Positions 517 to 26,394 of a DNA stretch of 33,513 nt are shown here, piece by piece; positions within the stretch are counted from its first letter, which is position 1; every line of letters begins with the position of its first letter. Source of the DNA: Acidobacteriota bacterium. GTDB lineage: Bacteria > Acidobacteriota > Vicinamibacteria > Vicinamibacterales > 2-12-FULL-66-21. Under the pieces are notes generated by a model. That model saw only the letters and a list, made by a program, of their open reading frames with translations. It made no database searches and was not told where the DNA came from. A program made the translations under genes and the position numbers. The stretch spans positions 1 to 33,513 of the forward strand of contig JACCRT010000039.1 of the NCBI GenBank assembly GCA_013813355.1, given 5' to 3'.

Positions 517-3177
517 TCAGGGGCGCGGCTGTCCCACGCGCCTCAACTCGGCGAACCAGTTCAGGATGACATTGACCCGGCGCTGCGGCCCCGTGTCGGG
601 GAGCTGGACCATCAGGAACCGCTCGCCGTCCGGCGTGACGTCGTACGAAAAGCCAGAGAGATTCTGATACGGCGCCTCGAACAGCAGGCGAGGGGATCCG
701 GCGGTGAAATCCGGACCACTGCCCACCTCCACCGCCATCCACTTGTAGCCAATGCGGTAGAACAGCTCGCGGCCGTCGCGCGACCAGACCGGCTCCTCGC
801 CGCCACCGCTGGAAATCTGCCACTGTCCGCCCTCACCTGAGGCCAACCGCACGTACACCTCGTAGCGCCCCGACGCGTCGGACGTGTATGCGATCCACCG
901 CCCGGTGGGCGAAAAGGCCGCCCCCCATTCGGTGGACGGCGTTGTCGCGATCGGGCGCGGGCGCCGCTCGCCCTCCATGGCCAGCACGCAGATGTCGTTT
1001 CCCGTGTCGCCGCACTGGATGGCGAGCATCGATCCGTCAGGCGACCAGGACCAGGGCGCCTCGCTCTGCCCGGACCAGACGACCTCCTCCGCGCCACTGC
1101 CGTCGGCCGGCCGGGTCACGATGGCGACCCCGTCATCCCGCAGGCTCAGATACGTGACCTGCCGGCCGTCCGGCGTCCACGCAGGCAGATGACTGCGGCC
1201 GTCCTGCGTCAGCCGGCTGAAGGTGCCCCGCACGGTTTCGTAGACCCAGATGTCACTGCCGGCGCCACGGACCTCGATCGCGATGCGCGAGCCATCGGGT
1301 GACAGCCGCAGCTGCGCGTAGCTGCCGGTCGGCATGCCCACCGGGGTCGCGGCGCCGTCCCTGGTCACCCACACCGGCCGACCGATCCAGGCCGGACCGC
1401 CTTCGACGTAAGCCAGGGTGCCGTCGGAAGCCAGCGCCACCTGGCCGGGGCCAGACTGCTCGCTGCGAATTCCGTCGAGCACCGGAACGGGGGAGCCGGT
1501 CGTGACGAGCCGAGTCACGTCGAACGGGACGGCAAACAGCGACGCGCCCCTGAGGAACAGGATGTGGCCCGTCGCCGCATAGAGCGCGTGCGTGCCGCCC
1601 TGGATGATGGTGTTCTGTTCCCCGGTTTCGATCGACAGCACCTGGATGGGCGCCTGGTCGTTGCTGCCGGACGTCCACTCGCCCATGAGCACGCTGTGCC
1701 CGCCCGGCAGCGCGGAATAGGTGATGAACGTGGGCCGCGGTGCCGAGACGATTGCCCGGGGTGTGCCGCCGGTCGCCGGGACGCGGACGACCCGGCCGCC
1801 TTCCTGGTCCCAAAAGATGACGGTGTCGTCGGGCATCCAGATGCCGCCGAACGCGTTGCGGGCCTCGCAGACCGTGGCCGGATCGCCACCGCTCAGCGAG
1901 ACTCGCCTGAGCACCGTCCCGCTGAAGAAGCCCACCGAGCTGCCGTCGGGCGAAAAGAACGGACCGTACGCGCCCTCGGTACCTGGCAGCCGGCGCGTCT
2001 CAAACCGGTTCAGCGCGCGTACAACCAGCTCCGAGGTGCCGTTCCGCTCCACGACAAGGACCAGCGTGGATCCGTCCGGCGAGATCGCGATCGACGTCCG
2101 GCCGTCGGCAAGCGGGGCCACCTGCGCGAGGCCGAGCCACTCGTGCTCCGGCAACACGACGGCCAGGCGGCGCATCGCGGACTCTTCCGCCGGCGCCGCC
2201 GTTCCGCGCCCGAGCATCCATGCCCCGACGGCCACGGCGACCAGCACCGCGCCTGCGGCCGCGTACCTCGCAAACGCGGGCGTCCTCCGGACCGTCAGCG
2301 GCGTTCCGGGGAGCGAGCCGCTACTTCCGAGCGTCTGCAGCGCGAACGCCAGGTCGCCGGCCGACTCGAACCGCCGTTCCGGCCGCTTGGCGAGGCAGCG
2401 GCGGACGATGCGATCCAGGACGAGGGCGGTCGACGTCTCCAGCCCTGACAGCTCCGGCGGATCCTCGTTGAGGACCGCGGCCATCGTTTCGATGGCGGAG
2501 TCACGCGCGAACGCGCGACGCCCGCCGAGCATCTCGTAGAGGATCGCCCCCAGGGCAAAGATGTCGGCGCGATGGTCGGCCGGTTCGCCGCGCACCTGTT
2601 CGGGCGCCATGTAGCCAGCCGTGCCGAGCACCTGGCCCGCGCCGGTACCTGCCGATTCGGGCACGAGCGCGGTCGGGCCGTCGGGATGCACGACTGGACC
2701 CTGCAGCTTGGCCAGGCCGAAATCGAGAATCTTCACGCGGTCGTCTCGCGTGACGAATAGATTCTCCGGCTTCAAGTCCCGGTGGACGATCCCCTTGTCG
2801 TGCGCCGCCGCCAGCCCTTCCGCGATCTGGACGATGTATCCGATTGCCACCTGGACCGGGAGCGGCCGGCCGGCCAGGCGCTCCCGCAGCGTCTGCCCCT
2901 CGAGCAGCTCCGCCACGAGGAACAGCGTGCCGTCGTGACGGCCCACATCGTGAACCGCGACGATGTTCGGATGATTGAGGGCCGCCGCGGCACGCGCCTC
3001 CTGCTCGAACCGACGGACCCGATCCGCGTCCGCGCCAAAGATCGGCGGGAGGATTTTGACCGCGACGGGTCGCCCCAGACGCGTATCCTGCGCCCGGTAG
3101 ACCTCTCCCATTCCGCCGACGCCCAGGAGAGACTCGATCAGGTAGGGGCCGATGCGCGTTCCCGAAACAAGTGCCAT
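517..3177 (-). CDS. Transmembrane Ser/Thr protein kinase with C-terminal PD40/TolB-like beta-propeller
   Basis: GVGGMGEVYRAQD glycine loop, VAVKIL, GIVHRDLKPENLFV, KILDFGLAKL, TM segment (AGAVLVAVAVGAWMLG), then repeated SPDG/WS.DG propeller motifs. Confidence 0.95.
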   Translation of the reverse strand: MALVSGTRIGPYLIESLLGVGGMGEVYRAQDTRLGRPVAVKILPPIFGADADRVRRFEQEARAAAALNHPNIVAVHDVGRHDGTLFLVAELLEGQTLRERLAGRPLPVQVAIGYIVQIAEGLAAAHDKGIVHRDLKPENLFVTRDDRVKILDFGLAKLQGPVVHPDGPTALVPESAGTGAGQVLGTAGYMAPEQVRGEPADHRADIFALGAILYEMLGGRRAFARDSAIETMAAVLNEDPPELSGLETSTALVLDRIVRRCLAKRPERRFESAGDLAFALQTLGSSGSLPGTPLTVRRTPAFARYAAAGAVLVAVAVGAWMLGRGTAAPAEESAMRRLAVVLPEHEWLGLAQVAPLADGRTSIAISPDGSTLVLVVERNGTSELVVRALNRFETRRLPGTEGAYGPFFSPDGSSVGFFSGTVLRRVSLSGGDPATVCEARNAFGGIWMPDDTVIFWDQEGGRVVRVPATGGTPRAIVSAPRPTFITYSALPGGHSVLMGEWTSGSNDQAPIQVLSIETGEQNTIIQGGTHALYAATGHILFLRGASLFAVPFDVTRLVTTGSPVPVLDGIRSEQSGPGQVALASDGTLAYVEGGPAWIGRPVWVTRDGAATPVGMPTGSYAQLRLSPDGSRIAIEVRGAGSDIWVYETVRGTFSRLTQDGRSHLPAWTPDGRQVTYLSLRDDGVAIVTRPADGSGAEEVVWSGQSEAPWSWSPDGSMLAIQCGDTGNDICVLAMEGERRPRPIATTPSTEWGAAFSPTGRWIAYTSDASGRYEVYVRLASGEGGQWQISSGGGEEPVWSRDGRELFYRIGYKWMAVEVGSGPDFTAGSPRLLFEAPYQNLSGFSYDVTPDGERFLMVQLPDTGPQRRVNVILNWFAELRRVGQPRP

Positions 3178-4311: not shown

Positions 4312-4351
4312 ATTCGCTCTGCCCATGGGCGCCTGAGCGGGCCAACCGACG

Positions 4352-5950
4352 CTACATCAGCGAACCCACCATCTCTTCGTAGGCGCCCTTGAAGTCGGTA
4401 ATGGTCCCGCCCTCGAAACGCCACACCCGCGTGCCGACTTCCTCGAGCAGGTCCTGGTCGTGGGTCACGAGCAGTACCGTCCCCTCGAACTTCTGGAGCG
4501 CGACGTTGAGAGCGTTGATCGCCTCGAGGTCAAGGTGGTTGGTGGGCTCGTCGAGCACGAGGACGTTCGGCTTCTGCAGCATGATGCGGCAGAAGAGCAG
4601 CCGCGCGGTTTCGCCGCCCGACAGCGCGTCGGTCGGCTTGTGGCCGTCCTCCCCGCTGAACAGCATCTGCCCGAGCAGGCCGTGGATCTCCTGGCGGGCG
4701 GCATCGGGATCGAAGCGGTGCAGCCATTCCACGACCGTGGTGCCCTTGTCGATGAGCCCTGTCGGATCCTGCGGAATATAACCGATTGAAACCTCGTGCC
4801 CCCACCGGACCTTGCCGGCGTCGCGATCGTCGGGCGACGCGGGCTGATCGGGGGCGTCGGCCAGCAGCGCCTTCAACAGCGTCGTCTTGCCGACGCCGTT
4901 CCTGCCGACCAGCACGATCTTCTCGCCACGGTTGATCACGGCGCTAAAGTCCGGGACGACCTGCAGGTCGCCGTGCGCCTTGGCCAGGCCCTCGAACTCG
5001 AGCGGGACCTTGCCGGACGGCCTGCGCGGCACGAAGCGGATGTAGGGGCGCTGGATGTTCGACCGCGCCAGCTCGGTGGTCTGCAGCCGCTCCACCTCCT
5101 TGCGCCGCGAGGTGGTCTGGCTGGCGCGGGTGCCGGCGCCGAAGCGCGCGATGAAGTCGTTGAGCTGCGCGATCTTCTTCTCGCGCTGCGCGTTCTCGGA
5201 CTCGATCTTCGAGCGAATCTGCGTCTTCGCGACGACCATGTCATCGTACCCGCCGGTATAGGTGATGATCGTCTGGTAGTCGATGTCGGCGATGTGGGTG
5301 CAGACCTGGTTCAGAAAGTGGCGGTCGTGCGAGATGACGATGAGCGCGCCTTCGTAGCGGGTCAGGAACTGCTCGAGCCAGTGGATCGACTCGAGATCGA
5401 GGTGGTTCGTCGGCTCGTCGAGGAGCAGCGCCTCCGGATTGCCAAACAGCGCCTGCGCCAGCAGCACGCGCACCTTCTGGCCGCCCTGCAGCTCGGCCAT
5501 CGGCCGCTCGTGCAGTTCGTCGGCGATGTCGAGCCCCTGGAGCAGGATGGCCGCTTCGCTCTCGGCGCTGTAGCCGTCCTCCTCGCCCACGATCCCCTCA
5601 AGCTCGCCGAGACGCATCCCGTCCTCGTTGGACATGTCGGCCTTGTCATACAGCGCATCGCGCTCCGCCAGCGCCTGCCAGAGCCGCTGGTTCCCCATGA
5701 TCACGGTGTCAATCACGCGGAACTGATCGAACGCGTACTGGTCCTGGCGCAGCACGCCCAGCTTCCGCGGCCGAACCACCGTCCCACGCTGCGGTTCGAG
5801 CTCACCGGTGAGCAGCTTCATGAAGGTGGACTTGCCTGCCCCGTTGGGGCCCGTCAGGCCATAACGGTGCCGGGCCGAGAACGTGGTCGCCACCTCCTCG
5901 AAGAGAATCTTGGAGCCGTACCGCATCGACACACCGCTAACCGAAATCAT
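4352..5950 (-). CDS. ABC-F family ATPase, YbiT-like
   Basis: Two ABC domains: GPNGAGKSTFMKLLTGE / LQGGQKVRVLLAQALF / LLLDEPTNHLD and GRNGVGKTTLLKALL / LSGGETARLLFCRIML / LVLDEPTNHLD; no TM segments; ABC-F linker. Confidence 0.95.
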   Translation of the reverse strand: MISVSGVSMRYGSKILFEEVATTFSARHRYGLTGPNGAGKSTFMKLLTGELEPQRGTVVRPRKLGVLRQDQYAFDQFRVIDTVIMGNQRLWQALAERDALYDKADMSNEDGMRLGELEGIVGEEDGYSAESEAAILLQGLDIADELHERPMAELQGGQKVRVLLAQALFGNPEALLLDEPTNHLDLESIHWLEQFLTRYEGALIVISHDRHFLNQVCTHIADIDYQTIITYTGGYDDMVVAKTQIRSKIESENAQREKKIAQLNDFIARFGAGTRASQTTSRRKEVERLQTTELARSNIQRPYIRFVPRRPSGKVPLEFEGLAKAHGDLQVVPDFSAVINRGEKIVLVGRNGVGKTTLLKALLADAPDQPASPDDRDAGKVRWGHEVSIGYIPQDPTGLIDKGTTVVEWLHRFDPDAARQEIHGLLGQMLFSGEDGHKPTDALSGGETARLLFCRIMLQKPNVLVLDEPTNHLDLEAINALNVALQKFEGTVLLVTHDQDLLEEVGTRVWRFEGGTITDFKGAYEEMVGSLM

Positions 5951-6030
5951 CAGGACCTAACCTCTGCTGACATGGAACACACACAACGAGGAACCTGCCA
6001 TTGTAACAGGTGTCTGGCGGCAGCCCGTTG

Positions 6031-6306
6031 TTACGGTCGGTCTTCGGGCTCGTCGGTGACCACCCGCCCCAGGCCGGCGCCTGCCAGCAGGGACCGGCAA
6101 TACTGGGCCTGCCCGGCCGGGACGTAGAAGCCCGCGCCGTGCCTCGGGGAGCCAAACAGGGTCGTCCGGCCAAGCTCCTCCACCTGCGCGACGTAGTCCA
6201 CGCCGTTGCCAGTCAGCAACTCCTCCACCTGCCGGGCTTCCCCCAGCGAGGCCGCAAGATAGACCAGCTCCCCGTCCCTGAGCGCATCCGCTTCCACCCG
6301 TCCCAT
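6031..6306 (-). CDS. Small DUF2007-like (putative signal-transducing) protein
   Basis: MGRVEADALRDGELVYLAASLGEARQVEELLTGNGVDYVAQVEELGRTTLFGSPRHGAGFYVPAGQAQYCRSLLAGAGLG; 'VYLA...EA..VE.LL...G..Y....FYVP......R.LL' pattern. Start chosen at internal ATG (6304-6306). Confidence 0.5.
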   Translation of the reverse strand: MGRVEADALRDGELVYLAASLGEARQVEELLTGNGVDYVAQVEELGRTTLFGSPRHGAGFYVPAGQAQYCRSLLAGAGLGRVVTDEPEDRP

Positions 6307-6325
6307 CGCGCGTTCGACTACGGGA

Positions 6326-6547
6326 TCAGTGGTAGTGGCCGTGCTCGGCCGACCACACGCGGTTCGGCCCGGCACCCCGGTCACGGTCCATCAGGGCGAA
6401 GCCCACCAGGATGACAGCCAGGACGGCACCCAAGACCACCAGGACCATGGTGCGGGTCCTCGACTGCCCCGCCGACGTCTCGCAGCACCGCTTGTACTTC
6501 TTCCCACTGCCGCAGGGGCAGGGCTCGTTTCTTCCGGCTCTGGCCAT
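6326..6547 (-). CDS. Short SEC-C metal-binding motif protein with one TM helix
   Basis: MARAGRNEPCPCGSGKKYKRCCETSAGQSRTRTMVLVVLGAVLAVILVGFALMDRDRGAGPNRVWSAEHGHYH*; canonical SEC-C CPCGSGKKYKRCC plus hydrophobic helix. Confidence 0.75.
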   Translation of the reverse strand: MARAGRNEPCPCGSGKKYKRCCETSAGQSRTRTMVLVVLGAVLAVILVGFALMDRDRGAGPNRVWSAEHGHYH

Positions 6548-6674
6548 AAATCCTCTCCGCAAGAGGATACTATGGCGAACCGTGCGCGCACTTGCGCAGT
6601 GCCTGCCGCCCGACCCCCGCCGCCCGCCGCTGCGATCCCTCAGAGCCATCACCCGCGGCCGCGCACTCTCCGAC

Positions 6675-6687
6675 GGGACAGTGTCCC
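6675..6687. promoter_or_regulatory. Palindrome GGGACA-G-TGTCCC overlapping the predicted -35 of the OsmC-like gene
   Basis: Perfect 6-bp inverted arms with 1-nt spacer; a TACAAT -10-like hexamer lies at 6706-6711, so the palindrome covers the -35 position. Confidence 0.35.
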
Positions 6688-6729
6688 GGGTCGAGACTTC
6701 AGTACTACAATCAGTGGCGGGAGACCGCC

Positions 6730-7056
6730 ATGCCCGACAACACGATTCGTGAGGCCCTCGAGCGCAATGCGAAGGCTGTCGCGCTTCGCCCATCCGTCGG
6801 GCAGAAGACCGGCAAGACGGCCGTCCACCTGAAGCCAGGGCTCACCTGTGGAGTGTCAGAAGGCGCATGGAGCATCACGGTTGGCATGGGCACCGCTGGC
6901 GGCGTCGAGGCGGGCCCCGGTCCGGGCACTCTCGGACGCGGCGCGCTCGGCTCGTGCCTGGCGCTGTCGTACGCGATGTGGGCCGCCCGGCTCGGTGTCG
7001 TGCTCGACACGGTGGACGTGACCGTCGAGGCAGACTACGACAGCCGCGACGCGTGA
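6730..7056 (+). pseudogene. OsmC/Ohr-family protein, C-terminally truncated
   Basis: MPDNTIREALERNAKAVALRPSVGQKTGKTAV...GTLGRGALGSCLALSYAMWAARLGVVLDTVDVTVEADYDSRDA*; OsmC core with GSC cysteine, but ends before the C-terminal helix/second-Cys region. Confidence 0.65.
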
Positions 7057-7148
7057 CGGCGCGCACGCCGAGTACCTGGCGTCGATCGACGCGTGGCGCG
7101 ACGGATCGGTGTATGACGTCCCGGGCGAGGTCGTCCTTGCCAGCGGCG

Positions 7149-14327: not shown

Positions 14328-15089
14328 TCAGGCACGAAACGACACCAGCAGGACCGTCACGTTGTCGCGGCTGCCGGCGTCGAGGGCCGCGGTGAGCAGC
14401 CGGTCGGCGAGCGTGGGCACGTCTGCAGGCTGGCTGAGAAGAGCGGACATGGCGCTGCTGTCGAGCGGGCCGCAGACGCCATCCGAACAGAGGAGCAGTA
14501 GTTCGCCGTCCCGCAGCCTGCGTTCCTGCACATCCACGGCGGTGTCGGCGTTGGCGCCTATGACGTTGGTGAGCACATGCCGCAGCGGGTTGGCCGCGAC
14601 CATCTCGTCGGTGATATCGGGATGGTCGGCCCGGATGCGCGTCACCCAGGAGTCATCGACGGTCAGCTGCGTCAGCTCGCCGTCGAAATACGAGTACACG
14701 CGGCTGTCGCCCACGCCCGCGTAGCTCATCACGTCGTCCCGCACCAGGGCGGCGGCAATGGTGGTGCCCATCCCGGCGTAGTCCGGGTTGGTCTGGCTGG
14801 CGTTGAACACGTGCGTGTTCGCCAGCCTGATGGCCGTGCCGAGGCGATTGGCTTGCAGCGAGAGCGTGGGGTCGATGCCAAACGGCATCGTGATGTCGGC
14901 GTCGCGGCCGCTCCTGCTGATGAAGTCCTGGAGCGTGTCCACGGCGAGCTGGGAGGCGATCTCCCCGGCGTTGTGGCCGCCCATGCCGTCGGCCACAATG
15001 AAGATCCCGAGGTCGACGCTCCAGTAGAGCGCGTCCTCGTTGGCCTTTCGGACCCGGCCCTTGTCGGTGATTCCGTGCGCTATGAGCAT
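14328..15089 (-). CDS. PP2C-family Ser/Thr protein phosphatase
   Basis: GITDKGRVRKANEDALY, FIVADGMGGHNAGEIAS, GMGTTIAAALV, YAGVGDSRVYSY, LLLLCSDGVCG, GSRDNVTVLLVSF. Start moved to internal ATG 15087-15089. Confidence 0.93.
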   Translation of the reverse strand: MLIAHGITDKGRVRKANEDALYWSVDLGIFIVADGMGGHNAGEIASQLAVDTLQDFISRSGRDADITMPFGIDPTLSLQANRLGTAIRLANTHVFNASQTNPDYAGMGTTIAAALVRDDVMSYAGVGDSRVYSYFDGELTQLTVDDSWVTRIRADHPDITDEMVAANPLRHVLTNVIGANADTAVDVQERRLRDGELLLLCSDGVCGPLDSSAMSALLSQPADVPTLADRLLTAALDAGSRDNVTVLLVSFRA

Positions 15090-15267
15090 GCCGCCTGGTT
15101 TCTTGCCTCGCTGGTGAGCGCGTTGAGTTCTGGATCCGGCGGCGACCGGGTCCCCGGTTGACACGTGCTGGCGCCGAGTTCCAGTTCTGCCGGTCGAGGC
15201 CCGGATGATATCAACGCCTCCCGGGGCAATCAACCGGGCGGGCCCCAGCGACCGGCTGTGCGCGTGT

Positions 15268-15297
15268 TTGCCCGAGCCGCGCCGGCTGCACTAGAAT
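15268..15297 (+). promoter_or_regulatory. Candidate sigma70-type promoter for the CsgG-like gene
   Basis: TTGCCC - 18 bp - TAGAAT, 37 bp upstream of the ATG; AAGGAGG Shine-Dalgarno at ~15324-15330. Confidence 0.4.
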
Positions 15298-15334
15298 AGG
15301 CCGCCCCCGTCAGTTGGACCAGCAAGGAGGAACA

Positions 15335-16252
15335 ATGAAAAAACTCGCCCTGTGCCTCGGGCTTGCCGTGGCGCTGCCGCTGCTGGCGCCCGTCAACGCG
15401 TCCGCGCAGGCAAAGGTGCGGATTGCGATCTGGGACTTCGAGAACAATTCCCAGGAAAGCCGGTGGTTCGCCAGCCAGCTCGGCCCCGCCGTGCGCAATC
15501 ATATCGACACCGCCTTTTCGGAGCATCCGCAGCTCGCAAAGCACTTTTCGGTCGTCGAACGCGACAAGCTGGCCCTGGTGCTGAAGGAGCAGGGCCTCGC
15601 CACATCGGGTGCGGTCGACGCCAAGACGGCGGCGAGCGTCGGCAAGCTGCTCGGCGTCCGCTACATTCTCACCGGCGCCATCGACAGCTTCAGCCTCAAC
15701 AGCGCCAGGGCCTCTACCAGGATGCTCGGCGGCGTCGGCGGCAGCATGGTCGAAGCCGAAGCGGGCATCAGCATGCGCATCATCGATACGACCACCGCCG
15801 AGCGGCTCGTGGCCGTGTCTGCCGAAGGCGGGGTCAAGAAGGGCGGCGGCGCGTTCCGTGGCACCGCGATCAGCCGGGACGCCGAGTGGGGCATCGCCAG
15901 CGAGGCGATCGAAAAGGCCGCGCAGGACCTGGTCAAGAAGTTCGTCAACGGCAACTACGCGAGCCGCTTCGTGACCGAGGGCGTCAACGCGACGCTCGAA
16001 GGAAAGGTGATCCGGGTCGATGGCGACCGCGCCTGGATCAATCTCGGGACATCGGCCGGCCTGAAGGTCGGCGATCGGTTCCAGGTGCTGCGGATCGGCG
16101 ACGAGCTCATCGATCCCGACACCGGTGCGAAGCTCGGCGCCGACGAGGAACAGACCGGCACGGCCGAAGTGATCGATGCGCAGGAGAAGTTCTCGATCGT
16201 GCGCGTCACCGGCGCAGTGGACGCGAAGTCGCTGCTGCGCAAGCAGCCGTAG
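15335..16252 (+). CDS. Secreted CsgG/HfaB-family protein
   Basis: Signal peptide MKKLALCLGLAVALPLLAPVNASA; VRIAIWDFENNS, VVERDKLALVLKEQGLATSGAVDAKTAASVGKLLGVRYILTGAIDSF, then a C-terminal GKVIRVDGDRAWINLGTSAGLKVGDRFQVLR beta domain. Confidence 0.85.
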   Translation: MKKLALCLGLAVALPLLAPVNASAQAKVRIAIWDFENNSQESRWFASQLGPAVRNHIDTAFSEHPQLAKHFSVVERDKLALVLKEQGLATSGAVDAKTAASVGKLLGVRYILTGAIDSFSLNSARASTRMLGGVGGSMVEAEAGISMRIIDTTTAERLVAVSAEGGVKKGGGAFRGTAISRDAEWGIASEAIEKAAQDLVKKFVNGNYASRFVTEGVNATLEGKVIRVDGDRAWINLGTSAGLKVGDRFQVLRIGDELIDPDTGAKLGADEEQTGTAEVIDAQEKFSIVRVTGAVDAKSLLRKQP

Positions 16253-16329
16253 TTTCGGGCGGCCCGCGCCTACGGCCCGCAGATGAGACGAACTCAGAGT
16301 GTCGAACCCGGAGGCACCCGTCCCGCGTT

Positions 16330-16364
16330 CCTCATTCTGAGTTCTGAGTTCTGAATTCTGATTT
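16330..16364 (+). repeat. Heptanucleotide repeat (CTGAGTT-type), 4-5 units, with an upstream inverted copy at 16291-16297
   Basis: CCTCATT-CTGAGTT-CTGAGTT-CTGAATT-CTGATTT, 7-nt period; AACTCAG at 16291-16297 is the reverse complement. Confidence 0.75.
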
Positions 16365-16368
16365 TCAC

Positions 16369-17412
16369 TTGCTTCCCCTACAGGTCCGCTTCATCAGCGG
16401 CTCGCGGCGCGGGCAGAAAACTGCCTTTCACCACTCCCCGGTTCGCGCCGGCCGGAGCCGCGACAGCGACCTCCTGGTTCCCGAACTGACCGAACCCCTG
16501 TCGAGCGGCCGCCATGCGGAGTTCGTCTTCGAGGACGGCCACTGGTGGGTCGTCGATTGCGCATCCACGAACGGCACTCGGCTCAACGGCCTGCCGGTGA
16601 GCCGGGCACGGCTGCAGGACCGCGACCGCCTCTCGTTTCGCGATGTCGATCTGGAGGTCCGTGTTGGCGCCGCCCGCCATCTCGGCCGCGCCGCGCTCGG
16701 CGCAGCGCTCATCGTGTTGCTCGCGATCATGGGCTGGGTTGCCTGGGAGGCCACGCGCCGCCCCCTCGACGCCATCGCGTCCGCGGCGCGCCGCTCCGTG
16801 TACCTGCTGACGATCCACGACGCCGAGCGGCGGACGGCCGTCGGGACCGCGTTCGCCGTGGACGCCTCCGGGCAGCTCGTGACCAACGCGCACGTCGCGG
16901 CGCCGCTGGCCGCGCTGCTGGCCACTGCGCAGTCCCCCATCCCGTATGCCGTCGGCGCCGACGATCCCGAGCGACCGCGACGCATCACGGGCATCAGGCT
17001 TCATCCCGGCTGGAGGGAGGGCTCCATCTCGAACGATGTGGCGCTGGTCACCGTCGAGCAGGGGCCCGCGCTCTCGCCGCTCCAACTGGCGCGCAGCGAC
17101 CAGCTTGCAGCCCTCGAGCCCGGAGTGACGGTCGCGATCTTCGGCTTCCCGGCGGCCTTCACCTATCCGGACCGCCCGCTGGGAAGTCTCGCGGTCAACG
17201 TCCTCAGGGAGGTCCGGGGCTCACGCTATCTGGTGGTCGGTGTGGCGGTGACCGCGGGATCGAGCGGCAGCCCCGTCTTCGCGATTGACGGCACCGTGGT
17301 CGGGATGATCGTGGGAAGCGGCCGGGCAGGTGCCGGCAACGTCGGCACCGAGGTGAACACCAGCCCCGGTGTCGCGCTCAGCGCGGCCGTGGTCCGCGAA
17401 GTGCTGCAGTAG
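16369..17412 (+). CDS. FHA domain - TM helix - trypsin-like (S1/HtrA-type) serine protease
   Basis: FHA: AGRSRDSDLLV..LSSGRHAEFVFEDGHWWVVDCASTNGTRLNG; TM ALGAALIVLLAIMGWVAW; protease triad LVTNAHVAAP, SNDVALV, TAGSSGSPVFAIDG. Start codon (TTG) uncertain. Confidence 0.85.
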   Translation: MLPLQVRFISGSRRGQKTAFHHSPVRAGRSRDSDLLVPELTEPLSSGRHAEFVFEDGHWWVVDCASTNGTRLNGLPVSRARLQDRDRLSFRDVDLEVRVGAARHLGRAALGAALIVLLAIMGWVAWEATRRPLDAIASAARRSVYLLTIHDAERRTAVGTAFAVDASGQLVTNAHVAAPLAALLATAQSPIPYAVGADDPERPRRITGIRLHPGWREGSISNDVALVTVEQGPALSPLQLARSDQLAALEPGVTVAIFGFPAAFTYPDRPLGSLAVNVLREVRGSRYLVVGVAVTAGSSGSPVFAIDGTVVGMIVGSGRAGAGNVGTEVNTSPGVALSAAVVREVLQ

Positions 17413-17499: not shown

Positions 17500-19542
17500 C
17501 TAGCCTCCGCCCTTCACCATGAACGCCTTGACCCGCGCCAGCGTGTCGATCGCCACAACCCGCGCATTCTCGTTCGCGCGCTCCGCGCCGAGGCGCTGAT
17601 CGAAACTGAACGTTCGCGCGGGGGCCATCGGGATCACGCGGTCCAGTTTCGGTGCGTCCCCCATCACCTCGATCGAATACGTCCGCACGGCCATCACTGT
17701 GCCGAACTGCTGCTCGCGCCGCTCGTCGATGGCCGTGGCCGTCGCGACAAGGATGATGTCGGCGCGATCCGACGAGCGGGCGATGCCCAGGCGCTCGCGT
17801 TCGAGCGCCTGGTCGAAGGCAGCTCGCACGGCGCCGCACACCTCGCCGGCGCCGCGGCATTCCACGAACACGGACGGACTGGCCGGCAGCGCTTGCACGC
17901 CTTGCGTGGACGGCGCGGGCGGTGACGCGGCACCTACCGGGGGTGGCGCGGCCCCCGTGAGAGGTGACCCCGTAGTTGCGGGAGGCACCCCACTCGCCGG
18001 AGGTGGCGCAGCCTGAGTAGATGGGGCTGCCGCACCGGCGTTCCCGGTTCCGCTGGATGCCGCGGATCCGCCCGGCGCACGCTGCGGCGGCGTGGTCGCG
18101 CTGCCACCGCCACCAGGCGCGCCGCTGGCCGAGGCGGACGCCGCCGCCGTCTCACCGGGAGCAATTACCTGGTCTGCTGGCGGACCTGCTGCGGACGTTG
18201 ATGCTCCTTCGGCCCGATCAATCGGCGGCAATGCTGTTGCCAATGACGCGTCCGGCGGGTGCGACCCTGTGTCCGTCGTCGCCTGCGGCGTCCCGCCGCC
18301 CGCCCGCTCGGTGAAAAACCAGAGCGCCCCGCCCAGGCCCGCGATAAGGGCGATGATGGCGGCGATCGAGCCGAGTGCGCCAAGCGAGCTCCCGGGTTTC
18401 GGCGTGAAGCCGGCCTCTGGTGTGACGGGCGGGGCTGGCACCGTCGGGCGGGTTCCCCGCAGGCCAACATCCGGCGCGGCGAGCGCCTGCTCCATCCCGG
18501 CCTGCGGCGTGGGCATGGTCAGGTCCGGGTCATCAAGCGCCCCTCGGAGGGCGCCCACGGCAAGTGATGGCGACGCGCCGAGCGGTCTCGCGGGTTCCCT
18601 GCCGGCGCCCGCTTCCAGCGCCGCGGCAAGTTCCTCCGCGGTCTGGTAGCGGTTGGCGGGATCCTTCTCGAGACACTTGAGCGCGACCGCCTCCAGGAAT
18701 GGCGGGATGCCGATGTCGGGTCGCCGCCGGGACGGCGGCGCCGGCGTTTCGGTCATGTGCTTGACCAGGATCGCCGGCGTGGACGGATCGGTGAACGGCA
18801 CCTCGCCGACCAGCATCTCGTAGAGCATCACGCCGAGCGAGTAGAGGTCGCTCCGCCCGTCCACGTCCTTCCCCATCGTCTGCTCAGGCGACATGTACTG
18901 GGGCGTGCCGAGTGCGTAGCCGGGCGCGGTAAGCTCGGTCTGTACCTCGTCGAACGTCTTCGCGATCCCGAAGTCGAGGAGCTTGGTTATCTCGCGCCCC
19001 TCGCTGTCACGCGTCAGCATGACGTTCTGCGGCTTGAGGTCTCGATGGATGATGTGGTGCCTGTGCGCAAGGGCGAGGGCGCTGGCGACCTGCCGCACGA
19101 TTGACACGATGCGCGGCGGGTCGATGCGGCCCTGGCGCCGGATCTCGTCTTTGAGGCTCCGGCCATCGACGAGTTCCATCGCGATGTACAGGGTGCCGTC
19201 GTCGGTCTGACCGAGGTCGTAGACCGCCACGATCCCCGGGTGGTTCAAGCTGGTGGCCGCGCGTGCTTCGCGCTGGAAGCGCCGGACCACGTCGTCGGAG
19301 CTGACGAGCTCAGCCTTAATCAGCTTGACGGCCACCGGCTTGTTCAGCATGACGTGCGTGGCACGGAAGACGGCACCCATGCCGCCGCTGCTGAGATGGC
19401 TTTCGAGGCGATACTTGCCCTGCAGCACCGCGCCCACGAAGCGTTCTTCAGTCGGGCGGTGGCCCTCGAGAACCGTGCCGTCCTTCGGGCAGAGCCGTAC
19501 GTTGGGAGGATAGGACGTTCCGCAGTTGGGGCAGGCGATCAT
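17500..19542 (-). CDS. Ser/Thr protein kinase with N-terminal zinc ribbon, TM helix, low-complexity linker and CsgG/FlgO-like C-terminal domain
   Basis: MIACPNCGTSYPPNVRLCPKDGTVLEG zinc ribbon; SSGGMGAVFRATH, VAVKLI, HHIIHRDLKPQNVML, KLLDFGIAKTF; TM LGSIAAIIALIAGLGGALWFF; A/P/G/S/T linker; C-terminal RADIILVATATAIDERRE.. domain. Confidence 0.92.
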   Translation of the reverse strand: MIACPNCGTSYPPNVRLCPKDGTVLEGHRPTEERFVGAVLQGKYRLESHLSSGGMGAVFRATHVMLNKPVAVKLIKAELVSSDDVVRRFQREARAATSLNHPGIVAVYDLGQTDDGTLYIAMELVDGRSLKDEIRRQGRIDPPRIVSIVRQVASALALAHRHHIIHRDLKPQNVMLTRDSEGREITKLLDFGIAKTFDEVQTELTAPGYALGTPQYMSPEQTMGKDVDGRSDLYSLGVMLYEMLVGEVPFTDPSTPAILVKHMTETPAPPSRRRPDIGIPPFLEAVALKCLEKDPANRYQTAEELAAALEAGAGREPARPLGASPSLAVGALRGALDDPDLTMPTPQAGMEQALAAPDVGLRGTRPTVPAPPVTPEAGFTPKPGSSLGALGSIAAIIALIAGLGGALWFFTERAGGGTPQATTDTGSHPPDASLATALPPIDRAEGASTSAAGPPADQVIAPGETAAASASASGAPGGGGSATTPPQRAPGGSAASSGTGNAGAAAPSTQAAPPPASGVPPATTGSPLTGAAPPPVGAASPPAPSTQGVQALPASPSVFVECRGAGEVCGAVRAAFDQALERERLGIARSSDRADIILVATATAIDERREQQFGTVMAVRTYSIEVMGDAPKLDRVIPMAPARTFSFDQRLGAERANENARVVAIDTLARVKAFMVKGGG

Positions 19543-19579
19543 TCGAGATGGCGTCTCCTGAGACGTCGAAAGGATCAGA

Positions 19580-19609
19580 ATTGTAGCCGTTTCGTCCACT
19601 TGACAACAA
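19580..19609 (-). promoter_or_regulatory. Candidate promoter of the zinc-ribbon kinase
   Basis: Minus strand TTGTTG - 18 bp - TACAAT upstream of the ATG at 19542 (alternative TTGTCA with 15-bp spacer). Confidence 0.35.
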
Positions 19610-19800
19610 GGCTCCCCGCGCCCATATTGAACCCATACTCTCCTCATTCCACAGGAGGCCGTTCGTTGGACACACCGCCGGATTCGCAAACGGGCTGAAC
19701 GGGGTTCCACCGAACCCGCGCCGTGTGGCCTCCGGTTGACTCCGGGCACACAGCCCCACCACTACCGGTGGGACCCCGTCTCCGCCCCCCGCCGCCATCC

Positions 19801-20733: not shown

Positions 20734-23604
20734 ATGGCCCCGACCCTGATTTCGCATTACCGCCTGCTCGACCAGCTTGGCGAAGGTGGCATGGGCGTGG
20801 TGTATCGCGCCGAAGACGTGCGCCTCGGCCGCGAAGTCGCCATCAAGCTGCTGCGCACCAGCGAGGTCCCGTCGGCGGAATGGCTCGCCCGCTTCGAACG
20901 GGAGGCTCGCCTTGCCTCGTCGCTGCAGCACCCGCACATCTGCACCATCCACGAGCTGGGCGAGCACGAGGGGCAGCCGTTTCTCGCCATGGAGCGGCTC
21001 GAGGGCCGCACCCTCCGGCAGGTGATCGACGACCCGATGCCAGCCCAGCGGGTGATTGGGCTGGCACGGCAGGCGGCCGACGCGCTCGACGCGGCACACC
21101 GCCGCGGGATTATTCACCGCGACATCAAGCCAGCCAACCTGTTCGTCAGCTATGGCGACCATCTGAAGGTCCTCGATTTCGGCCTCGCCAAGCTTGCGTC
21201 GGCCGGAGACGTTCACGGCGAGCGCGCGCCGTCGAGCCCGACCCTTCCCGCACCGGCCGGGCTCGACCTCACGCGCGCCGGCGATCGCGTCGGCACGACC
21301 GCCTACATGTCTCCGGAGCAGGCGCTTGGGCAGCCGCTCGACGCGCGGACGGACCTGTTCTCGCTCGGCAGCGTGATCTACGAGATGGCGACCGGCCGAC
21401 GGGCCTTCGGGGGCGACGACATCGCGCTCATCGTCACGAAGATCATCAACGGGATACTCGTCCCGCCCTCCACGGTCAATGCTGCCATCCCGGCGCAACT
21501 CGAGGCGATCGTCCTGCGACTGCTCGCGGTGGACCCTGCGAACCGGTACCAGACGGCCGCCGAACTGATAATCGATCTTTCCGCGGCGGCCGAATCCCTC
21601 GAGCCACGGGAGGAAGCTGCCGCGCTCTCACAGCCCCGTCCCATCAAGCGAGCTCGCCTGCAGGCCGTTGTGCCGCTCGTACTGGGCGCGCTGGTGCTGG
21701 CGGGGGTGGCGAGGTGGACGCTGGCACCCCGCGGCGCGGCATTGACGGATCGCGACAGCCTGCTCGTGGCGGCGTTCGAGAACACGACGGGCGATCCCAT
21801 GTTCGATGACGCGCTCATCCATGGCCTCAAGGTGCAGCTCGGCCAGTCACCCTTTCTCGATATCGTTCCCGACGCGCGCGTCCGCGAGACGCTGCGGCTG
21901 ATGGGCCGTCCAGACGACGAGGCCCTGACGGCGTCGACGGTGCGCGAGGTCTGCGAGCGGATGGGCGTGCGTGCGATGCTCGAAGGCTCGATCGCACCGC
22001 TCGGTGCCAACTACGTGCTCACGTTGAACGCCACCGAGTGCCAGACCGGCGAACCTCTGGCGCGGGCACAGGGCGAAGCCACGAGCGATGCACGCGTGCT
22101 GGCGGTCCTCGGCTCGATCTCGTCGTCCATCCGTCAGACGCTTGGTGAGTCACTGCCCACGCTGGAGCGGTTCGATGTCCCGATCGAGCAGGCCACGACG
22201 CCGTCGCTGGCAGCGCTGAAGGCGTACACGCTGGGCCTCGAGGAACGCCGACGGGGCCGCGAGCTCGAATCGGTCGCATTTTTCAACCAGGCGACCGAGC
22301 TCGACCCCCACTTCGCCGCCGCCTACGCAACGTTGTCGACGGTGTACGGCAGCCTCGGCGAATGGCGTCGAAGCGAAGAGTTCGCCCGCAAGGCGTACGA
22401 CCTCCGGGACCGCGTCAGCGAACGCGAGCGGCTGTTCATCACCTACCAGTTCCACGACCGGGTGACCGGGGACCAGGACAAGGCCGCTGCCACGCTCGAA
22501 CTGTGGCGAACCCAGTACCTGCGTGAGTCGCGGCCGTCCAACGCCCTGGCGGTGATTCACAACCGTGTCGGCCGCTACGAGCAGGCGGAGGCCGAGGCCC
22601 GCGAGGCGCTGCGGCGAACGCCCGGGCATCCGTTCCCCCTGTCGAACCTCGCCTTGACCTATCGCGCGCTCGGGCGCTATGACGACGCGCGCCGGGTGGC
22701 GGAGGAGGCGGTTGCGCTCGGCGTGGAAACGTCCCCGACGCGCCGGTTGCTGTATCAGCTCGGGATGCTGACCGGCGACGGATCGGCGGACGCGCACGTC
22801 ACCTGGGCGAAGGACCGGCCGCGCGAGTTCGACCTCGTCTCGGCGCAGGCGGAGGTAGCGGCGTTCGACGGCCGGATGCAGGAGGCCGGCGAACTCTACC
22901 AGCGTGCGGCGGACATGGCGCTGGCACGCCGGCTGCGCGGCACCGCCTCCGGGTACGCGGCACGGGTCGCCTGGACGGAGGTCCTCTATCGTCCGGCGCC
23001 AGAGGCTGCCGCGCGCGTCCGCCGCGTCGTGGCGCTCATCGAGGGCGGGCGCGAGGGGCCCGGCTCCGTGCCGCGCTTCCGCGGGGCGGCGGCCTACGCG
23101 CTGGCCGGCATGACGACCGAAGCGCAGGCTATTGTCGCGGAGGCCGAGCAGCGATACCCGGAGTCCACGCTGGTCCGTGACGTGCTGGCCCCCTCGACCA
23201 GGGCTGCGCTGGCGCTGCGGCAGGGCCGTGCCCAGGCCGCGCTCGACGCCCTGGAGGCAACCAGGCGCACCGAAACCGGCACGATGGCCGGCCTGGTCCC
23301 CGTGTATTTGCGCGCCGAAGCGATGCTGATGGCGGGGTCCGCCGCACCGGCCGCGCGGGAGTACCAGAGGATCCTGGAGCATCGCGGGGTCGATCCCTTT
23401 ACGCCGCTCATCCCGCTCGCGCATCTCGGCATCGCGCGCGCCAGGGCGCTGGCAGGCGACGCCGCCGGCAGCCGTCAGGCGTACGAGGCGCTCTTCGAGC
23501 TCTGGCGAGACGCGGATGCCGACCTGGCCCCGCTGACGGCCGCACGGGCGGAGTACGCCCGCCTCAGCACGCTCGGCCCGGTGCCGGAGCATTCGTCCCG
23601 GTAA
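20734..23604 (+). CDS. Transmembrane Ser/Thr protein kinase with FlgO/TolB-N-like and TPR sensor region (catalytically intact)
   Basis: LGEGGMGVVYRAEDVRLGREVAIKLL, GIIHRDIKPANLFV, KVLDFGLAKL, TTAYMSPEQ; TM VVPLVLGALVLAGVARW; VRAMLEGSIAPLG domain; multiple TPRs. ATG at 20734. Confidence 0.93.
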   Translation: MAPTLISHYRLLDQLGEGGMGVVYRAEDVRLGREVAIKLLRTSEVPSAEWLARFEREARLASSLQHPHICTIHELGEHEGQPFLAMERLEGRTLRQVIDDPMPAQRVIGLARQAADALDAAHRRGIIHRDIKPANLFVSYGDHLKVLDFGLAKLASAGDVHGERAPSSPTLPAPAGLDLTRAGDRVGTTAYMSPEQALGQPLDARTDLFSLGSVIYEMATGRRAFGGDDIALIVTKIINGILVPPSTVNAAIPAQLEAIVLRLLAVDPANRYQTAAELIIDLSAAAESLEPREEAAALSQPRPIKRARLQAVVPLVLGALVLAGVARWTLAPRGAALTDRDSLLVAAFENTTGDPMFDDALIHGLKVQLGQSPFLDIVPDARVRETLRLMGRPDDEALTASTVREVCERMGVRAMLEGSIAPLGANYVLTLNATECQTGEPLARAQGEATSDARVLAVLGSISSSIRQTLGESLPTLERFDVPIEQATTPSLAALKAYTLGLEERRRGRELESVAFFNQATELDPHFAAAYATLSTVYGSLGEWRRSEEFARKAYDLRDRVSERERLFITYQFHDRVTGDQDKAAATLELWRTQYLRESRPSNALAVIHNRVGRYEQAEAEAREALRRTPGHPFPLSNLALTYRALGRYDDARRVAEEAVALGVETSPTRRLLYQLGMLTGDGSADAHVTWAKDRPREFDLVSAQAEVAAFDGRMQEAGELYQRAADMALARRLRGTASGYAARVAWTEVLYRPAPEAAARVRRVVALIEGGREGPGSVPRFRGAAAYALAGMTTEAQAIVAEAEQRYPESTLVRDVLAPSTRAALALRQGRAQAALDALEATRRTETGTMAGLVPVYLRAEAMLMAGSAAPAAREYQRILEHRGVDPFTPLIPLAHLGIARARALAGDAAGSRQAYEALFELWRDADADLAPLTAARAEYARLSTLGPVPEHSSR

Positions 23605-23607
23605 TCC

Positions 23608-26394
23608 GTGCCGTCCCAGCGCATCTCGCATTACGAACTGCTCGACCGCATCGGCCGCGACGGGCCGACCGAGATCTACCGCGCCCGCGACCTGCGCCTC
23701 GAACGCGAGGTCGCCGTGAAGATCCTGCGCAGCGAAGTGCGCGACCTTCCAGGCGCCGTCGCGCGCTTCAGTCGAGAGGCCCGCATCGCGTCGCTCGTCA
23801 CGCACCCGCACGTCTGCGCCGTGCACGACTTCGGCGACGAGAACGGCCGGGCCTTCCTGGTCTGCGAGCTGCTCGAGGGCCGCGCGCTCGACGAGCTGAT
23901 GGCCGGCGCGCCGCTTCGGCCCGACCGGCTCATCGACATCGCGATCCAGCTGGCCGATGCGCTCGTCGCCGCGCACCGCCGTGGTGTCGTGCACGGCGGC
24001 GTGAAGCCGTCGAACGTGTTCGTCACGACCGACGGGCACGTCAAGCTCCTCGAACTCGGCGCCGTCGCGGCGGCCAGGCCGGATCCCCGTCCCGCCGACA
24101 GCCCCTCGGCCGACACCTCCAGCCATGTGGGGGACGCGCAGGTGGATGCGGTCGAGTACTTCCACCCGTACCTGTCGCCGGAACAGGTCGCCGGGCGCCC
24201 ACCCGACGAGCGCAGCGATATCTTTGCCACCGGCGCGCTGCTCTACGAGATGGCCACGGGCAGGCCTCCGTTCGAGGGACCAACACTCCCTGAGCTCGTG
24301 CAGGCGATCGCCGGCCGCGATCCACAGCCGCCGCGCACGCTGAATCCGAGCTTGCCGGGAGCGCTCGAGCCGATCATCATGCGGGCGCTTGCCCGGGCCC
24401 CGGCGGCCCGCTACCAGGCCGCCGCCGACCTGTTCGAGGATCTCCGCCGCGTCCGGCGGGCGATCGAGACGCCAGGCCCGGGACCGACGAGCAGCCGGCG
24501 CCGAGCGCTTCCGCTGACCGCCGCGGCCATTGTCGTCGGCCTTGCGGCCGTCGTGGCGATTGTCGCGCTGCCCTGGCGGGGGAGCCGGGCAGACTCCGGC
24601 TTGGCCCTGCGCAGCAGCGTGCTGGTCGGTCACCTCTACAACGGTACGGCCGACCCCGACTTCGATGGAACGTTGCGCGAAGCGGTGACGGTCTATCTCG
24701 AGCAGTCTCCGCACCTGGAGCTCGTCTCGGACGCGCGCATCCGCGCGCGGCTGCGCATGATGGGCCTCGACGCGACCAGCCGCATGACCCACGGGGTCGC
24801 CTTCGAAGTCTGCCAGCGCCTCGGCATCCAGGCCATGATCGAGGGCAGCGTGTCGGCGGTCGGCCGTTCGACCGTCATCGCGCTCGTCGCCACCGACTGC
24901 ACGAGCGGCGAACCGATCGCGCGGGAACAGGCCGAGGTGGAACGGAAGGAAGACGTGCTCGGGGCGCTCGGCACGATCACGGCCTCGGTGCGGGCCGCGC
25001 TCGGCGAATCGGGTGTCTCGCTGGCCAGTCACAACGTGCCAATCGAGGATGCGACGACCCCGTCGTTCGACGCGCTGAAGGCCTACACCGAGGGGGCATC
25101 CCGGCGGGCGGCGGGCGCCGAACTCGAAGCCATTCCGTTCTTGAAGCGAGCCATCGCCATCGATCCTCAGTTCGCACTCGCGTACACGACCCTGTCGAGC
25201 CTCTATGGCGGGCTCGGCGAAACGGGACGGAGCGAGGAACTGGCGCGCCTCGCCTACGAACACCGCGAGCGTGTCAGCGAGCGCGAGCGGCTCTTCATCG
25301 CGTACCAGTACCACGACCGCGTGTCCGGGGACCAGTTGAAGGCCCGGGAAGCGCTGGAGGTCTGGAAACGCACGTACCCGCACGACTATCGCCCCGCGAA
25401 CGCCCTCGCGGTTCTGCTGAACCGGCTCGGGCAGTATGACGCGGCCGCCGGCGAGGCGGAGGAAGCCCGCCGCCGAAACCCGGACCACGCGTTCCCGTAC
25501 TCGAACCTCGCCTATGCGCACCGCGGCGCGGGCCGCTATGGAGAGGCGCGTGCCGTGGCGGAACGAGCGCTCCAGGACAACCTCGAGACGCTGCCGATGC
25601 GCCGGCTCCTGTACCAAGTGGCGGAAATTGAAGGGGACGAGCCGGCGGCGCGCCGGCAGATCGACTGGGCCCGTGGCCGCGGGCGTGAATTCGACTTCAC
25701 CGGTGCTCGGGCACAGGTGGCTGCGTTTCGGGGACGGGTCGACGAAGCGCGCGCGCTCTACCGAACCGCGATCGCCGGGGCCAGGGCGGAAGGTTTCGGC
25801 CAGGTCGCCGACGGATACGGGGCGCAGGCCGCACTGATGGAGGCGCTCTATGGCTTCAGCCGGGAGGCCCTCGAGATTGCGAGGCCGATTGCCCGTGGCT
25901 CGACCGCCCCCGAAGCCCAGCTCCGCGCCGCGACGGCCATGGCGCTCGCAGGCGCCGCAGGCGAGGCCGAAGGGGTGCTCAGGGGCCTGCGGACCCTCCG
26001 GCCGGAAGATACGCTCCTGCAGGCGGCCTATCTCGCCCCCGCGGAGGCCGCGGTGCAGCTCGCCGCCGGCAGAACCGGCCCGGCGCTCGAACACCTGCGC
26101 CGCGCTTCGCCTTACGAGTACGGGATAGTCGCCGCGCTCGTGCCCGGCTACCTCCGGGCCGAGGCCCGGCTGCGGGCCGGTGCTCTCGACGAGGCGGCTC
26201 GCGAGTTCGCCGCCGTGCTCGACCACCGCGGCGCTGACCCGTTCTCGCCCGTAATCCCGGTTTCCCGGCTCGGCCTGGCGCGCGCACTGGCGCGGAGCGG
26301 CGACCGTACCCGCAGCACCGAATCGCTCGACGCACTCCGCGCCGAGTGGAAGGACGCCGATCCGGTCATGCGCCGCCTCCTCGACGCGCGGTGA
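23608..26394 (+). CDS. Paralogous TM kinase-fold/TPR receptor; predicted pseudokinase
   Basis: Colinear with the preceding protein but with IGRDGPTEIYRA (glycine loop lost), VVHGGVKPSNVFV (HRD->HGG), LLELGAVAAA (DFG->ELG); VAVKIL Lys and SREARIA Glu kept. GTG start 3 nt after the upstream stop. Confidence 0.9.
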   Translation: MPSQRISHYELLDRIGRDGPTEIYRARDLRLEREVAVKILRSEVRDLPGAVARFSREARIASLVTHPHVCAVHDFGDENGRAFLVCELLEGRALDELMAGAPLRPDRLIDIAIQLADALVAAHRRGVVHGGVKPSNVFVTTDGHVKLLELGAVAAARPDPRPADSPSADTSSHVGDAQVDAVEYFHPYLSPEQVAGRPPDERSDIFATGALLYEMATGRPPFEGPTLPELVQAIAGRDPQPPRTLNPSLPGALEPIIMRALARAPAARYQAAADLFEDLRRVRRAIETPGPGPTSSRRRALPLTAAAIVVGLAAVVAIVALPWRGSRADSGLALRSSVLVGHLYNGTADPDFDGTLREAVTVYLEQSPHLELVSDARIRARLRMMGLDATSRMTHGVAFEVCQRLGIQAMIEGSVSAVGRSTVIALVATDCTSGEPIAREQAEVERKEDVLGALGTITASVRAALGESGVSLASHNVPIEDATTPSFDALKAYTEGASRRAAGAELEAIPFLKRAIAIDPQFALAYTTLSSLYGGLGETGRSEELARLAYEHRERVSERERLFIAYQYHDRVSGDQLKAREALEVWKRTYPHDYRPANALAVLLNRLGQYDAAAGEAEEARRRNPDHAFPYSNLAYAHRGAGRYGEARAVAERALQDNLETLPMRRLLYQVAEIEGDEPAARRQIDWARGRGREFDFTGARAQVAAFRGRVDEARALYRTAIAGARAEGFGQVADGYGAQAALMEALYGFSREALEIARPIARGSTAPEAQLRAATAMALAGAAGEAEGVLRGLRTLRPEDTLLQAAYLAPAEAAVQLAAGRTGPALEHLRRASPYEYGIVAALVPGYLRAEARLRAGALDEAAREFAAVLDHRGADPFSPVIPVSRLGLARALARSGDRTRSTESLDALRAEWKDADPVMRRLLDAR

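Follow-up and report, generated by a model that had tools for sequence, protein, structure and literature searches.

A receptor kinase and an adjacent, apparently dead paralogue are maintained as a conserved gene pair in Acidobacteriota

Why would a bacterium keep a dead receptor kinase directly beside a live one? The question is raised by a 33,513-nucleotide stretch of DNA (the window) from a genome bin that is 57% complete. In this DNA, whose host is apparently a soil-type acidobacterium, two adjoining genes, A and B, appear to code for a pair of similar membrane receptors, of which one is a normal protein kinase and the other a dead one. Inactive co-receptors of this kind are well known in animals. 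The initial annotation had described the two products as colinear kinase-TM-TPR paralogues, with every catalytic motif kept in A and with HRD, DFG and the glycine loop lost from B; its positions for the reading frames, the stop, the GTG start and the HRD, DFG, HGG and ELG triplets all proved exact (Table 1). The two proteins aligned colinearly from end to end, with 45% identity over 954 columns. The Pfam Pkinase family matched both A (4e-42) and B (5e-28), and TPRs were matched in both. Gene A has the features of a Hanks-type receptor Ser/Thr kinase, namely all catalytic motifs, a TM segment and a sensor whose predicted location is extracytoplasmic.

Table 1 Features of the A-B gene pair in the window. 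Domain limits are residue numbers.
Feature	Position	Strand	Evidence or detail
Gene A, canonical receptor Ser/Thr kinase, 956 aa	20734..23604	+	ORF, Pfam, alignment
Domains of A			Kinase ~6-280, TM ~312-330, TolB-N/LpoB-like ~338-480, TPR ~481-945
HRD of A	21115..21123	+	Intact in 8/8 A orthologues
DFG of A	21175..21183	+	Intact in 8/8 A orthologues
A-B junction, TAA-TCC-GTG	23602..23610	+	A stop 23602-23604, B GTG start 23608
Gene B, receptor pseudokinase, 928 aa	23608..26394	+	ORF, Pfam, alignment, AF2 model, fold search
Domains of B			Pseudokinase ~6-275, TM ~303-321, TolB-N/LpoB-like ~334-474, TPR ~476-920
Degenerate glycine loop of B, IGRDGPT	23650..23670	+	Second Gly = Asp in 8/8 B orthologues
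HGG replacing HRD in B	23992..24000	+	Position 131 = G/N/N/Q/H/H/H/N across 8 B orthologues
ELG replacing DFG in B	24052..24060	+	Position 149 = E/E/E/G/S/G/G/E across 8 B orthologues
TolB-N/LpoB/CsgG-type periplasmic-class domain of B, two invariant Cys (C402, C431)	24607..25029	+	

We compared the catalytic motifs across eight orthologues of each protein and 13 outgroup kinases. HRD-Asp and DFG-Asp were present in all eight A orthologues and missing from all eight of B; these two residues, the second Gly and the DFG-Phe were canonical in A and in the outgroup kinases and altered in every B. A normal HRD or DFG in some B orthologue, which would have pointed to a recent mutation or an assembly error in the window, was not encountered among the eight. 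The residues that occupy the two Asp sites in B vary freely, while HRD-His, DFG-Gly, the Pro-Glu of the SPEQ motif, the alphaF Asp and Gly and the alphaI Arg are retained. As a kinase fold that lacks at least one of VAIK-Lys, HRD-Asp and DFG-Asp, B is a pseudokinase; two of the three residues are lost in the window, G010 and G008, and all three in family f4 and in G004. The VAVK Lys and alphaC Glu, which the initial annotation had listed as kept, are indeed present in the B of the window, but this does not extend to the family as a whole. The ATP Lys site reads K, K, K, R in family f1 and Q, L, Q, Q in f4, so that retention is lineage-specific: both residues are found in most f1 orthologues and are absent from f4, where the Glu is replaced by Gln. 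The catalytic-loop Asn is likewise kept in most f1 orthologues and lost in f4. Since the ATP Lys and alphaC Glu are gone from half of the orthologues, the function of B is probably independent of ATP. Sixteen residues are fixed or nearly so in the B pseudokinase domain and rare elsewhere, and A has 21 of its own, indicating that both proteins have diverged. At positions 10 and 27, A carries R and E and B carries E or Q and R/Q, a charge swap suggestive of cross-strand pairing in the beta1-beta2 hairpin. Any enrichment of the N-lobe in residues specific to A or to B was too weak for use.

Orthologues were sought in relatives, in the order, in the class (193 genomes) and in a 396-genome sample of the phylum. 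The eight B orthologues fall into two families of the order, f1 (G000, G004, G008 and G010) and genus g12 of f4 (G014, G027, G037 and G055). Across the 193 class genomes and the phylum sample, A and B occurred together in eight genomes and B alone in none. Wherever the junction was readable, B lay immediately 3' of A, with the genes overlapping by 4 nt at one extreme and lying a few tens of nucleotides apart at the other, so the close linkage seen in the window recurs in other Acidobacteriota. The 3-nt in-frame gap is confined to the window, GTGA overlaps are found in G037 and G008, and the other genomes have short spacers. In G004, B runs on to a second contig, and that assembly has a frameshift in A; in G160, A is truncated by the contig end and no B was recovered. 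No clear Shine-Dalgarno sequence precedes the B start in the window; this is consistent with translational coupling, though not proof of it. Within the flanks compared, no flanking genes were common to f1 and f4, or to the window and G010, so the pair itself is the conserved unit; flanking genes are partly common within f4. A related-locus search of the genome contigs gave no match.

The full-length tree placed A and B in separate clades (100/100 each) that are sisters at 99/98, with the single canonical kinases of family f7 (G017 and G049) outside at 97/95, in agreement with the tandem duplication proposed at the outset. Kinase-only and sensor-only trees also recovered both clades; the sister relation was kept in the sensor tree (92/89) and left undecided in the kinase-only tree by the long B branch. 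This topology shows a single duplication of a canonical kinase followed by loss of catalysis on the B stem. The loss predates either the split between f1 and f4 or a transfer of the pair between them, and the patchy occurrence of the pair is compatible with losses and transfer alike.

We next consider the constraint on B. Under the GY model, omega was 0.039 for the A kinase domain, 0.051 for the B kinase domain, 0.05-0.085 for the sensor parts and 0.28 for the B linker, values that are rough, dS being probably close to saturated over such distances. The B kinase domain is thus under purifying rather than relaxed selection, and with eight orthologues this upholds the initial view of B as an intact pseudokinase and not a product of plain decay. 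Between the window and f4, kinase-domain identity was 65% for A and 50-53% for B, whereas TPR-region identity was 55-57% for A and 61-64% for B. The TPR regions of the two are similarly conserved relative to the window (61-66% in B vs. 55-69% in A). The kinase domain of B is less conserved than that of A and may therefore be less important to the protein than the sensor. Overall, this pattern suggests that B is retained for its sensor plus a folded, non-catalytic kinase domain.

We utilized AlphaFold2 (AF2) models to examine both parts of B. The pseudokinase domain was predicted to adopt a full kinase fold resembling PknB (TMt up to 0.92), and its closest relatives in the PDB are PknB chains; model confidence was low in the activation loop and linker. 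At the site equivalent to PknB L33, every A and B protein has Leu; at that of D76, A always has E and B has D or N. The N-lobe dimer surface would therefore be available in both proteins, yet it is common to this type of kinase, so its retention is not specific. The middle domain matched no Pfam family; modelled alone for B (pLDDT 91), it matched the folds of LpoB-C, TolB-N, GNA1162, PelC, FlgT and CsgG, all of them envelope proteins. The 'FlgO/TolB-N-like' label given to it earlier is therefore correct by fold. Most A and B proteins have one hydrophobic TM-like segment at ~290-340, and all 14 A/B proteins checked have two Cys 29 residues apart on its C-terminal side. The TM-like segment and the spaced Cys pair fit a periplasmic, disulfide-bonded sensor, and with the fold matches they lend weight to the periplasmic-type sensing first proposed for the pair. 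The pair also matched TIGR04510 (peptide modification system cyclase) at 187 and 176 bits, under the curated cutoff of 400 bits and hence outside the family. These matches are confined to the TM-sensor-TPR region of A (21748-23541) and of B (24604-26391); cyclase-type receptors thus seem to draw on this sensor module as well.

We propose that A, as the active receptor kinase, and B, as its dedicated non-catalytic co-receptor, would form one signalling unit made from adjacent genes. Both would sit in the inner membrane with their TolB-N/LpoB-like and TPR sensors facing the periplasm, and would associate by way of their kinase N-lobes and their related sensors, in the manner of the back-to-back dimers of PknB, PknD and MviN. 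B might then tune or activate A allosterically, or serve as a docking or phosphorylation platform for it. Back-to-back N-lobe dimers activate PknD and PknB allosterically (PMC3601408); the pseudokinase domain of MviN dimerises in the same way (PMC12599244). We favour a heteromeric co-receptor because of this precedent and because the dimer surface is available in both proteins. That the two genes form a functional unit with a non-catalytic B is rather probable, and the chances of the co-receptor or scaffold explanation as a whole are evenly balanced. A physical A-B heterodimer falls just short of even, and specific allosteric activation of A by B is unlikely. Against reading the pair as a unit, the two genes lie side by side partly as a legacy of the tandem duplication, and kinase genes are often arranged in tandem in these genomes.

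Several other roles for B were weighed. B could be a scaffold or substrate whose juxtamembrane region or linker is phosphorylated by A and then recruits an FHA reader, as with mycobacterial PknB, MviN and FhaA. Besides the MviN precedent, the window itself contains an FHA-trypsin gene and a PP2C gene, but no window neighbour, these two included, was matched in the flanks examined in other genomes, and the linker is poorly conserved; we regard this role as rather improbable. Much the same low probability attaches to B as an antagonist or decoy that captures either A or the periplasmic ligand common to both, and so holds A off and sets a threshold. Its sensor is conserved like that of A and its kinase domain is unable to signal, as a decoy would have it, but a pure decoy needs no kinase domain at omega ~0.05 with 16 fixed residues of its own.

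A different catalytic activity in a remodelled kinase site, like AMPylation by SelO or glutamylation by SidJ, is highly improbable. The kinase fold is kept, and most f1 orthologues retain the Lys, the alphaC Glu and the catalytic-loop Asn, but all three are gone in f4, and both Asp sites drift to no conserved replacement. Decay of a duplicate gene, or an error of assembly, is a scarcely credible account of B: although its catalytic residues are gone and its kinase domain evolves faster than that of A, the reading frames of the eight orthologues are open to the contig limits, omega is 0.05-0.06 and the loss is common to two families. We regard these conserved orthologues as ruling it out.

The window holds further phospho-signalling genes. 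A PP2C-type phosphatase (- strand, 14328-15233), a CsgG/FlgT-like protein (+) and the FHA-trypsin protein (+, 16369-17412) lie within 14328-17412, and two more kinases, at 17500-19749 (-) and 517-3177 (-), occur near the PP2C and FHA genes. This local cluster was not seen beside the pair in relatives, within the flanks compared.

Next, we surveyed kinase domains in the complete genome G027. It gave 46 matches, nearly all canonical and several in tandem arrays; degenerate domains numbered only a handful, and B was the only clear stand-alone receptor lacking both HRD-Asp and DFG-Asp. Tandem kinases are thus ordinary in these genomes, whereas it is out of the ordinary to find a dead sister receptor beside a live one. 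We rejected chance adjacency in such kinase-rich genomes: tandem canonical kinases are common, but dead domains are few. As a side observation, a 632-aa ORF (L110:1178-3076, -) joins an N-terminal canonical kinase to a C-terminal degenerate domain (VAIR, without HRD or DFG). In a 1411-aa ORF (L109:1381-5616, +), the N-terminus is NERD-like and there are two kinase domains, one degenerate (HRA) and a second with HRDIKPDN; the protein resembles BREX PglW-type proteins. A stand-alone TPR-type receptor of G027 (L112:4824-7559, -) has a degenerate kinase domain (HGLLSPDN, VVIR). In G313, distant within the phylum, two canonical TPR kinases lie in tandem (L059:4256-9998, +), an independent duplication without loss of catalysis.

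A second tandem pair of a pseudokinase and a canonical receptor kinase was found in G027 (L111:1772-4312 and 4333-7134, the pseudokinase 20 nt upstream of the kinase) and in G037 (L115 and L119). Its pseudokinase carries VILA/VVLA, HRDL[S/T]TRQ and VPFG motifs and has lost the ATP Lys, the catalytic-loop Lys/Asn and the DFG-Asp, and both proteins have C-termini that read as WD40-like propellers. This pair arose independently, as other residues were lost and the sensor differs.

The A-B pair resembles several known systems in part. Xanthomonas PknS shares the layout of A and B, with a cytoplasmic kinase, one TM segment and a periplasmic TPR region (PMC13147305), but PknS, like PknB and PknD, works as a single kinase or homodimer, whereas here a dead paralogue is encoded next door. 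Actinobacterial MviN (ActPs3) is a membrane-linked pseudokinase without ATP motifs that forms a back-to-back dimer and has a receptor-kinase partner. It is, however, a peptidoglycan-synthesis membrane protein and not a TPR receptor, whereas B and its presumed kinase partner are sister paralogues. The ActPs3 hallmarks of an activation-loop deletion and complete motif loss in Actinobacteria are not those of B, in which the activation loop is close to that of A in length and, in the window, the ATP Lys is present. GLW pseudokinases of Proteobacteria also have a TM segment C-terminal to the dead kinase domain, and Leu for the ATP Lys as in one f4 B, but they replace HRD with GLW where B has HGx or HAN (HGG/HGN/HAN/HGH/HGQ), and no paired kinase is mentioned for them. 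CP1 pseudokinases lack a TM segment and have a linked COG3899 domain, unlike B with its TM and TPR/TolB-N-like region. The HER3-type receptors of metazoans and the kinase/pseudokinase receptor pairs of plants and nematodes are, like A and B, paralogous receptors of which one is dead. They belong to other kinase families without orthology to the pair, and functional pairing is demonstrated for them and predicted for A and B. The sequence features of a HER3-like heterodimeric receptor are nevertheless present: a paralogous pair kept together, one member of it dead.

In the open-access literature searched, we found no report of a tandem Hanks-type kinase/pseudokinase receptor pair in bacteria, and a 2025 review of bacterial pseudokinases mentions neither Acidobacteria nor tandem pairs nor TPR receptors. 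It is a tentative and somewhat doubtful idea that this order has repeatedly evolved HER3-like heteromeric Ser/Thr kinase receptors, in which a tandem active kinase is allosterically controlled by a dead paralogue sharing its sensor; two such cases would be the TPR pair of the window and, in two relatives, the independent pair with beta-propeller sensors. Bacterial pseudokinases have been catalogued mostly without known partners. For the A-B pair, the sequences show which protein is the presumed partner, what the ancestral state was and in which direction it changed. With this readable history and the presence of the pair in complete genomes, whether dead paralogues serve as co-receptors in bacteria becomes a directly testable question.
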